Shown: positions 54,301 through 57,139 of the stretch, in pieces
Layout: each line of letters opens with the position of its first letter
Numbering within the stretch: position 1 is the first letter of the stretch
Assembly: GCA_946628965.1 (NCBI GenBank)
Contig: CAMOXI010000001.1
Location: 1-64,000, forward strand
Origin: an uncultured Clostridia bacterium
Lineage (GTDB): Bacteria > Bacillota > Clostridia > Oscillospirales > Oscillospiraceae
DNA: 64,000 nt
Direction: 5' to 3'
Position numbers and translations under genes: made by a program
Notes under the pieces: generated by a model
The model's input: the letters and a program-made list of their open reading frames with translations, nothing else
Told to the model about the DNA's origin: nothing
Databases searched by the model: none

Positions 54301-54514
54301 CCAGAACGCCATCAAGGCTTCCGTGCACAAGATCCTCTTCGCCATGAGCCAGTCCAACCTCATGAACCGCTATGACCCCTCCACCCGCGTGGTCAAGCTG
54401 CCTGTTCCCTGGCGTACCGCCTACCAGACCGCCGAGTATGCCTTCGGCGCGCTGATGGTCTGCTCCGCCGTCCTGTACCTTGTTGCCAAGCTTCGCAAAA
54501 AGGAGGTAAAGTAA
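51308..54514 (+). CDS. Membrane-anchored glycoside hydrolase family 3 protein with reversed domain order
   Basis: N-terminal TM; GH3 C-domain motifs first (GSVLLKNENNVLPL; AYGFGYGLSYTTFSF; FnIII-like), then GH3 catalytic (PILWGPGLNTHRHAYNGRNGEYYSEDP, PKHYAFNDQETNR, GFRGYAVTDIYDDF); C-terminal TM. Confidence 0.9.
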   Translation: MKVKRTGLWRGLTSLMCFLLALSIIAGNVLEANAQTIDTYMGTQSERMESDGALYDKFTPSADVLNEDGTGNSHALIQKAIDLNRRQAYEGSVLLKNENNVLPLASGANVTLLGIRSHKPVLGSAFGVKVWGPVINLEQALRDNRTDFAHTMSDSASTNWQTGETTIAPTMDAWTGDEFDFDGAGYGVNPTMIDVYDKLLATYHHEYNEGAEEVFDPREPSLEDLASVNENYKDSFAQYGDAAIVVISRASGESHDYLPGGVVAGLGFDEPLALSQNERDAIELAKECSDKVIVLINSSASVEIADLKNDPDVDAILWIGAPGAYGMLGVADILCGKVSPSGGLFDIFAAQNMSAPAMQNMGNFRYANADGTVVRGGGMFGGNTGMYIMEAENIYVGYRYYETRYYDCVAGQGNAASEAGVYASSGDWNYDDEVAYGFGYGLSYTTFSFDFEGEPEFKVAKNANGSVDATATFNVKVTNTGDVAGKTSVQIYGQAPYTLGGLEKSAIQLINYDKTQVLQPGESEVVSVVCDLQYIASYDVNLNNGEGGYVLDPGTYYFAVGNGAHAALQNIMAKQGLPVEANAENAFEREIDESFIERTAFSVSKTGEKIVNQIPYADWNYYQPGEVTYLSRADWAGTWPQTYDKLTLTNEQLIDNLNGKYYTIKTDDDTSSIIWEEGNGTMFYEMWGVDYDDPKWDELINNMTLEEAQYLATYGGPSIPGASTIGTVETYMTENAGNGVAVNLNASKDTGAPWNIATTDPNGNWHPEVFGNSPLTASSFNPQLCYDLGAFVGEESLFTGIPILWGPGLNTHRHAYNGRNGEYYSEDPILSGVTAMEFAVGALQYGLIAAPKHYAFNDQETNRSGVAPYMTEQRAREVELRAYQYAFEATKYDTPEFDQGMRGLMISFSKIGSVECTASVGMMTNILAKEWGFRGYAVTDIYDDFDIYGAVLTSGTTCYDTRGMAGFYTNTTLDGGRFEGQVDGSTVNSAVFAGDATAQNAIKASVHKILFAMSQSNLMNRYDPSTRVVKLPVPWRTAYQTAEYAFGALMVCSAVLYLVAKLRKKEVK

Positions 54515-54515
54515 G

Positions 54516-54953
54516 ATGCTCAAGAAATTCACTGTCGGCTCCTGGTTTACCGTGATCGCCGCCATCGCCGGCGTCGTCGGCGTGATCTTCATGCTGAAAT
54601 CCAGCAACATCGACACCGCCTATGCCTACAAGACCGTGAACACCCTGACCCTGATGGGCGTCTGCGGCGTGGTTCTCTGCCTGCTGGCCGTGTGGTCTCC
54701 CACCCGCTTCGGCAATCATGACATCATCAGCACCTTCGGTTCTGTCGGCGCCATCGGCCTGTTCATGGCCGTCGTCGGCACCATGATCTCTGACCGCGTC
54801 CTGATGATCGCGGGCCTCTTCTCCTACAACTCCCAGAACATGGTCGGCTGGCGCGTGTTCTACGCCACCGTCACCGGCATTGTGGCCTTCGTCGTCGGCA
54901 GCCTGCTGCTGATCCTCGCGTCCTTCATGAAGAACGCCAAGGCCGCCAAGTAA
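54516..54953 (+). CDS. Small multi-TM membrane protein of unknown function
   Basis: Four hydrophobic segments; starts immediately after the GH3 gene. Confidence 0.75.
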   Translation: MLKKFTVGSWFTVIAAIAGVVGVIFMLKSSNIDTAYAYKTVNTLTLMGVCGVVLCLLAVWSPTRFGNHDIISTFGSVGAIGLFMAVVGTMISDRVLMIAGLFSYNSQNMVGWRVFYATVTGIVAFVVGSLLLILASFMKNAKAAK

Positions 54954-54970
54954 TCAAGTTGTCACACCAT

Positions 54971-54995
54971 ACTCCCGCAGAATCTCTGCGGGAGT
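54971..54995 (+). terminator. Intrinsic hairpin after the small membrane protein gene
   Basis: ACTCCCGCAG-AATCT-CTGCGGGAGT. Confidence 0.7.
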
Positions 54996-55200
54996 ATAAT
55001 GACTATTGGATGGCGAAAAGCCAAGAAGCTTTTCGCCGCGCCGCTTTGCGGCGCAGCAAAACAGCTGTGCTGCTTTGCCAAATATTCATTGCAATGAGCA
55101 TCGGGCGAATGATTCCATGAATCATTCGCTGCCAAACTTGTCGTTTGGCGGCGAAATCAATCGTACCCTCGATTGATTTCGCCATCCGATGGTCATTATG
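54995..55200. repeat. Multi-hairpin (seven-stem) structured element with 24-bp outer stem
   Basis: Outer arms 54995-55018 and 55177-55200; internal hairpins at 55012-55037, 55038-55054, 55056-55078, 55086-55097, 55105-55129, 55131-55149, 55150-55183. Confidence 0.9.
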
Positions 55201-55216
55201 GTGCATGGAGGAAGAA

Positions 55217-57139
55217 ATGAGAAGCTGCATCAACCTGAATCGCAGCTGGCGCTTCACCGGGCCGGAGGGCACGGTGAGCGAAGTTGACGTCCCCCATACC
55301 TGGAACGCCATCGACGGCCAGGACGGCGGGAACGACTACAAGCGCTGCCGCTGCGAATACGAAAAGAAGTTCCCCAAGCCCGCCTTCTCGGATGAGGAGC
55401 GGGTCTATCTCCAGTTTCACGGCGTCAATTCCGAGTGCGAGGTCACGCTGAACGGTCAGAAGATCATGAGCCACGAGGGCGGCTACTCCACCTTCCGCAC
55501 GGACGTGACCGAGCTGCTGCAGAGTGAGAATACCCTGCAGGTCTCCGTCACCAACGCGCCCAACGACCGGGTCTACCCCCAGAAGGCGGACTTCACCTTC
55601 TACGGCGGCATCTACCGCGACGTGGAGCTGCTGATTGTTCCGGAGAAGCACTTCGACCTGGACTACTTCGGCGGCTATGGCCTGATGGTCACGGCGAAGC
55701 CCCTGGAGGGCTACGCCCGCGGCGAAGTGCAGGTCAAGACCTTCCAGAACGCGGAGGAGACCGTTACGGTCACACTGCTGGACGCGGAGGGCAAAGAGGT
55801 CGCACGGGGCGAAGGCGCCGAGCAGACCCTGTATATTGAGAACGTCCGCCTCTGGAACGGCGTGGAGGATCCCTACCTCTACACCTGCGTGGCGCGTCTC
55901 GCCTCCGGCGATGAGGTCTCCTGCCGCTTCGGCGTGCGGGACTTCCACTACCATCCCAAGACCGGCTTCTACCTCAACGGCAAAAAGTACCCCCTGCGCG
56001 GCGTGAGCCGTCACCAGGACCGCAAGGGCCTGGGCAACGCGATTACCCGGGAAATGCACAAGGAAGATATGGACATCATCTGCGAGATGGGCGCCAATAC
56101 CATCCGCCTGGCCCACTACCAGCATGACCAGTACTTCTATGACCTCTGCGACGAGCGGGGCATGGTGGTCTGGGCTGAGATCCCTTACATCTCCGAGCAT
56201 ATGCCGAAGGGCCGGGAGAACACCATCTCCCAGATGAAGGAGCTCATCACCCAGTGCTACAACCACCCCTCCATCGTCTGCTGGGGCGTCTCCAACGAGA
56301 TCACCATCTCCACCAAGGACAACAAGGACATGTTGGACAACCACCGCGTCCTGAACGACCTCTGCCACAAGATGGATCCCAGCCGCTTCACCACCCTGGC
56401 CTGCTACGCCATGTGCGGCCCCTTCAACCCCGTGGCCCACATCACCGACGTGGTGAGCTGGAACCTGTATCTGGGCTGGTACGTGCCGGGCCTCTGGCTC
56501 AACGACGCCTGGATGCGCTTTTTCCACACGGTCTATCCCGACCGCTGCCTCGGCTACTCCGAGTACGGCTGCGAGGGCATGCCGAACCTGCACTCGAGCC
56601 ACCCGAAGCGGGGCGACCACAGCGAGGAGTATCAGGCCAAGTACCACGAGTACATGCTCGAGTGCTTCGAGCGCAACCCCTACATGTGGGCGACCCACGT
56701 GTGGAACATGTTCGACTTTGCGGCCGACGCCAGGGATCAGGGCGGCGAGCCCGGCATGAACCACAAGGGCCTCGTGACCTTCGACCGCAAGACCCGCAAG
56801 GACAGCTTCTATCTCTACAAAGCCTGGTGGAGCAGGGATCCCTTTGTGCACATCTGCTCCAAGCGCTTTGAAGACCGCACCGAGAGCGAGATCGAGGTCA
56901 AGGTCTACTCGAACCAGAACGAAGTCACGCTCTACGTCAACGGCGACAAGCTGGAGACCAGACACGGCGAGCACATCTTCACCTTCCGCGTGCCCATGGG
57001 CAGCGAGACGAAAGTCCGCGCCGCCTCCGGCGAGTGGAGCGACGAGGCTGTGTTCCGCAAGGTTTCCGTCCCCAATCCCGCCTACGTCCTGAAGGACGCG
57101 GGGGACAAGGGCGCGAACTGGACCAACAAGGAGGATTGA
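55217..57139 (+). CDS. Glycoside hydrolase family 2 enzyme (beta-galactosidase/beta-glucuronidase-like)
   Basis: GH2 acid/base WGVSNE and nucleophile GYSEYGCEG; sugar-binding N-terminal domain; RBS GGAGGA before ATG 55217. Confidence 0.92.
   Translation: MRSCINLNRSWRFTGPEGTVSEVDVPHTWNAIDGQDGGNDYKRCRCEYEKKFPKPAFSDEERVYLQFHGVNSECEVTLNGQKIMSHEGGYSTFRTDVTELLQSENTLQVSVTNAPNDRVYPQKADFTFYGGIYRDVELLIVPEKHFDLDYFGGYGLMVTAKPLEGYARGEVQVKTFQNAEETVTVTLLDAEGKEVARGEGAEQTLYIENVRLWNGVEDPYLYTCVARLASGDEVSCRFGVRDFHYHPKTGFYLNGKKYPLRGVSRHQDRKGLGNAITREMHKEDMDIICEMGANTIRLAHYQHDQYFYDLCDERGMVVWAEIPYISEHMPKGRENTISQMKELITQCYNHPSIVCWGVSNEITISTKDNKDMLDNHRVLNDLCHKMDPSRFTTLACYAMCGPFNPVAHITDVVSWNLYLGWYVPGLWLNDAWMRFFHTVYPDRCLGYSEYGCEGMPNLHSSHPKRGDHSEEYQAKYHEYMLECFERNPYMWATHVWNMFDFAADARDQGGEPGMNHKGLVTFDRKTRKDSFYLYKAWWSRDPFVHICSKRFEDRTESEIEVKVYSNQNEVTLYVNGDKLETRHGEHIFTFRVPMGSETKVRAASGEWSDEAVFRKVSVPNPAYVLKDAGDKGANWTNKED

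Follow-up and report, generated by a model that had tools for sequence, protein, structure and literature searches.

REPINs are inverted doublets of REP sequences, for which RAYT tyrosine transposases are the proposed movers; they show compensatory changes, and a "clover" fold has been proposed for their transposable state (PMC3116915). REP and REPIN palindromes have an adjacent GTAG or CGTC tag (PMC3733652). In the Bacillus cereus group, bcr1-type repeats resemble MITEs and can be included in transcripts (PMC3446304), and the ends of IS200/IS605 elements contain subterminal hairpins that are read by a Y1 transposase (PMC6006769). We located an element that recalls all three systems in a 64,000-nucleotide stretch of DNA (the window) from an uncultured Clostridia bacterium. 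Like REPINs, it is short, gene-free, intergenic and interspersed, occurs as singlets and inverted doublets, shows compensatory stem changes and alternative long-hairpin and clover folds, and relies on a mover in trans. It differs from the short REP palindromes in its size (about 200 bp, six hairpins), in its ends (ATAATGA/TCATTAT, with AT on both sides at empty sites) and in the absence of GTAG, CGTC and their complements from the 204-nt consensus. Whereas a cognate RAYT gene is usually flanked by repeats, the RAYT genes at 20 loci are not flanked by our element, except for one at a distance of 2.4 kb. MITE-like features are the gene-free intergenic repeat, the inverted terminal sequence and the target repeat (204 bp, non-coding, ATAATGA/TCATTAT ends, AT repeat at four empty sites). 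Unlike MITEs, however, the element has no known autonomous partner, and in contrast to MITEs and bcr1 its twin three-hairpin plan has been kept across several families of the order while the stem sequences changed. With IS200/IS605 it shares hairpins near both ends and the retention of a short target motif upon insertion, which would fit a single-strand model, but the element folds far more elaborately, has symmetrical ends and contains neither tnpA nor tnpB.

The original prediction described seven hairpins at positions 54995-55200. The region was right; an alignment of flanked copies fixes the boundaries at ATAATGA...TCATTAT and thus the element proper at 54996-55199 (204 bp), which has no gene or coding capacity. 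All inverted repeats listed in that prediction are present at their positions, and six of the hairpins are supported by covariation. The seventh, TCATTGCAATGA, is no hairpin and instead forms the conserved junction (TCATT-GC-AATGA, 55086-55097) of two abutting units; it is nearly invariant in 87 copies, and copies in other families show the same layout with other central dinucleotides. The neighbors of the window copy are a GH3 gene, a 145-amino acid protein without Pfam match, a GH2 gene and an MFS_2 transporter. The GH2 gene lies downstream and outside of the element (55217-57139, + strand; Pfam Glyco_hydro_2 domains, start picked by eye behind GGAGG). No Rfam match was found up to E = 1 in positions 54400-55800.

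Folding bore out the strong structure that had been predicted. The RNA fold of positions 54980-55215 has an energy of -123.6 kcal/mol, compared with -72.5 ± 4.8 kcal/mol for 200 dinucleotide shuffles (z -10.6, 0/200), and the bottom-strand DNA of the same interval folds equally strongly (z -11.2). We analyzed covariation in an alignment of 87 distinct copies (alignment A1). In the six hairpins, 97.5% of the cells are paired, and double-sided changes are found in 219 cells versus 31.8 after shuffling, which ignores relatedness but agrees with slid controls. The hairpins (all on the + strand) are P2 (55012-55037, GGCGAAAAGC/GCTTTTCGCC), P3 (55038-55054, GCGCCGC/GCGGCGC) and P4 (55056-55078, GCAAAACAGC/GCTGCTTTGC) in unit 1, and P5 (55105-55129), P6 (55130-55150) and P7 (55151-55182) in unit 2. 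Two base stems, also on the + strand, enclose them (54998-55009 with 55079-55090 in unit 1, 55093-55104 with 55186-55197 in unit 2) and have 57 double-sided changes compared with 15.6 in shuffled alignments, including a GC to CG swap at one pair in 14 copies. The stems are thus kept by compensatory change, and as both base stems and hairpins covary, the element consists of two adjacent cloverleaves. The inverted homology of its two halves is modest (score 76, compared with 34 ± 6 for shuffled sequences and 65.5 in direct orientation).

The 24-bp pairing of the element ends, with three G-U pairs, exists in the window copy as predicted, but it is not a conserved structure: we count 5 double-sided changes over 87 copies, where 5.9 are expected from shuffles. 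The switch suggested in the original prediction thereby lacks covariation support for one of its arms. Because base stems and outer stem draw on the same end sequences, they are mutually exclusive; by analogy with what has been suggested for REPINs, the element could switch between a state with two cloverleaves and one with a single long hairpin. G-T and A-C mismatches are about equally frequent in the stems (44 and 59, respectively; p 0.17), so neither strand is favored and there is no sign that the RNA of one strand is being kept; this balance could also come from neutral decay of copies after insertion.

The source genome (G000; 2.18 Mb in 134 contigs, 75% complete) contains eight full copies with 84-100% identity as well as fragments, three of them at contig ends. 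Within the genus, which comprises rumen Oscillospiraceae MAGs, 33 of 61 genomes match, a few by short matches alone and some with many copies, and a DNA search of other families of the order returned matches in 0 of 38 genomes. Several copies in G046 are identical or nearly so, and their spread must therefore be recent; near-identical copies are also found in G244. Among named records, the motif is found mainly in Oscillospiraceae/Ruminococcaceae MAGs from rumen and gut. One contig titled Synergistes sp. (L175, JAEEYY010000099.1) carries the motif and is possibly misbinned. We found no match to phage or plasmid; the sole IMG/VR pattern match (L051) lies in coding DNA and is due to chance. A literature search, to which most subscription journals were out of reach, returned no description of the repeat. 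Other repeats occur in the same genomes: beside a contig-end copy (L009:56-200) lies another palindromic repeat with GTAGGGGC and a GTAG-tagged REP look, and a different short interspersed repeat around CCCCAGTGTGCGCACTGGGGCACCTTCCCC has many copies in G044 (on many contigs), G019 and others.

Single cloverleaves with the same ends exist for both halves (unit 1 type, L259, L261 and L262; unit 2 type, L250, L251 and L254). Elements also lie side by side, sharing TCATT-AT-AATGA, and the center of the doublet, TCATT-GC-AATGA, has the same spacing as this junction. The doublet therefore resembles a pair of units separated by a fixed 2-bp spacer. The element also varies in length. A short form of 151 bp is found at L295:1501-1651 (G046:C35); this copy and the short form L257 have lost hairpins P6 and P7 and kept the closing stem. 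Long forms of about 352-363 bp (L169:6270-6621, L184:168-519, L140:7345-7695 and L048:1503-1865) have inserts in the P5 loop; these are 150-160 bp long and hairpin-rich, and copies in the UBA3758 MAG share one insert, a different one being present in G021. Pairs of ends about 64 bp apart (G070:C17:22768-22831 and G070:C16:36600-36663) are apparently one-hairpin mini forms.

A covariance model of unit 2, run over 248 genomes of the order, identified three real relatives (L342, L343 and L344), all from other families, and one chance match (L345). A search with the pattern of the doublet center showed that G070 and G244 harbor multi-copy families and G241 a few copies, the matches in G310 being due to chance; with the end pattern, around 25 copies were detected in G189. 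Hairpin sequences in these families are largely different (for example, GTCGAAA/TTTCGAC replaces GGCGAAA/TTTCGCC), but the plan, the ends, the junction and the number and order of hairpins are kept, and twin cloverleaves are again the minimum-energy fold in all three copies that we folded. Single units are present as well (L405 and L406). As plan, ends and junction are common to the families while most hairpin sequences differ, what is conserved appears to be the fold as such, and evolution appears, from these sequence comparisons, to have kept the folded shape more than the sequence.

Insertion is precise. We collected 127 unique insertion sites and located four clean empty sites, at which the element has entered at one AT and left AT on both sides (empty, X-AT-Y; filled, X-AT-[AATGA...TCATT]-AT-Y). 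Site 1 compares L128 with L144 (96.5% identity), and sites 2-4 compare L120, L122 and L121 with L425, L435 and L445 of G007 (94, 92 and 90% identity, respectively); in L128 the right-hand AT reads GT. By the rule from these four other loci, the AT at either edge of the window copy (54996-54997 and 55198-55199) would be the 2-bp direct repeat. A T is preferred before the target AT and an A after it: T adjoins the element in 172 of 252 flanks and ATT in 47 of 252, so that the preferred target, ATT-AT-AAT, is palindromic. In 15 of 252 flanks, a -35-like hexamer (5/6 bases of TTGACA) precedes the TATAAT-like box of the element end by exactly 17 bp, compared with 1.4 per other offset; some insertions are therefore located in promoter -10 boxes, and the element end restores these boxes. 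At the window copy, T54995, the left AT and the next bases also read TATAAT, but there is no -35 at the required place and hence no such promoter.

The location directly upstream of the GH2 gene had pointed to a leader. None of 107 sites lies inside an ORF as called by a simple longest-ORF scheme, and these intergenic sites are scattered over unrelated places (31 convergent, 27 divergent and 49 tandem) with neither orientation bias nor linkage to a gene, which rules against a GH2-specific leader and gives no support to a switch. At several sites, many neighboring ORFs stop 3-4 bases inside the element, because ATAATGA supplies TAA and TGA stops, and some insertions are at or beside stop codons. 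Taken together, the element is interspersed, inserts precisely at AT and occurs as singlets and doublets, and the "mobile multi-hairpin cassette" that had been offered as the other possibility is what the copies, empty sites and lack of gene linkage reveal. Related copies and, for the six hairpins, covariation, whose absence was to count against the original prediction, are thus both present.

The element has no gene of its own, and an enzyme supplied from elsewhere must therefore move it. We could not identify this enzyme among the candidate families searched, and paired-end searches of these incomplete genomes returned no autonomous long version. IS200- and RAYT-type Y1 transposases are frequent in these genomes, yet their presence does not follow that of the element: at the default threshold there is none in G044 or G023, and G189 has only a disrupted weak match. 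RAYT-like genes score 76.7 bits with NF047646, below the cut-off of 80. The RAYT-like proteins L321-L340 (about 160-200 amino acids) include regions of low complexity, for example RRGDPCGRP and RATARVAPT, that resemble another repeat in translation. IS630 has no match in the source genome, and a derivative of it is unlikely, since the L122 empty site (gtc-AT-caa) has no TA at the insertion point for the TA target duplication. No IS30 match above cut-off was found in the source genome or G046 (both 73-75% complete), and none for IS607 in 44 genomes. Judged from these searches, IS30 and IS630 are unlikely movers.

Our favored reading, to which we give an even chance, is that of a non-autonomous, REPIN/MITE-like mobile element of two abutting cloverleaves whose folded DNA is recognized by an enzyme in trans. 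The folded DNA, exposed as single strand at replication or extruded as a cruciform, would be the substrate, most likely for a single-strand transposase of the HUH/Y1 type. This enzyme would cut after AT at both ends and paste the strand after an AT in a new target, in a manner similar to that put forward for REPINs. In a -10 box (T-AT-AAT), the element end ATAAT would restore the box, and the insertion may thus be tolerated. We prefer the single-strand model because it fits the conserved folding near both ends and the AT kept on both sides.

A double-strand transposase, or a recombinase with a 2-bp core, would account for the 2-bp direct repeat just as well. The element may be an ordinary double-strand MITE, in which AATGA/TCATT are the terminal inverted repeats recognized by a DDE transposase yet to be discovered, or recombinase arms around an AT core; its internal hairpins would then be kept on other grounds, for example because they insulate transcription or avoid harm. 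The symmetrical ends, the palindromic target preference, the AT on both sides and the doublet center, with the same arms around 2 bp, all argue for this interpretation. We nevertheless hold it to be rather unlikely: by itself it leaves unexplained the compensatory change in six internal stems and the plan kept across families with other sequences, and the IS630, IS30 and IS607 searches provided no supporting match. Template switching, a known mutation type at imperfect palindromes, copies mutations between hairpin arms, so that compensation would be apparent only and require no selection for the fold. It would likewise leave no strand bias, but it is improbable as the explanation here, as the base stems, with arms 70-80 nt apart and three hairpins between them, covary too, and hairpin number and order are kept between families despite differing stem sequences. 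That the element is a structured RNA which serves the cell as a riboswitch, leader or sRNA and is multi-copy by coincidence seems very improbable to us: strong covariation and, in some copies, a promoter-like -35 placed to start transcription inside the element would suit it, but convergent sites are as many as divergent ones, G-T mismatches are not favored over A-C, Rfam has no match and some insertions are very recent.

Small palindromic non-autonomous mobile DNA is a known kind, and the new part is the twin-cloverleaf architecture together with conservation at the level of the fold. More boldly, this minimal mobile DNA may form a class found throughout the order and be recognized through its fold rather than its sequence, with two cloverleaf (four-way-junction-like) structures and a mover in trans that reads structure and inserts it at AT, a generalization that we consider possible but short of probable. 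For these rumen bacteria, the element coincides with contig ends in metagenome assemblies, lands in promoters and could be mistaken for a riboswitch. With the fold as the apparent conserved trait, how structured DNA is recognized and moved becomes directly testable.
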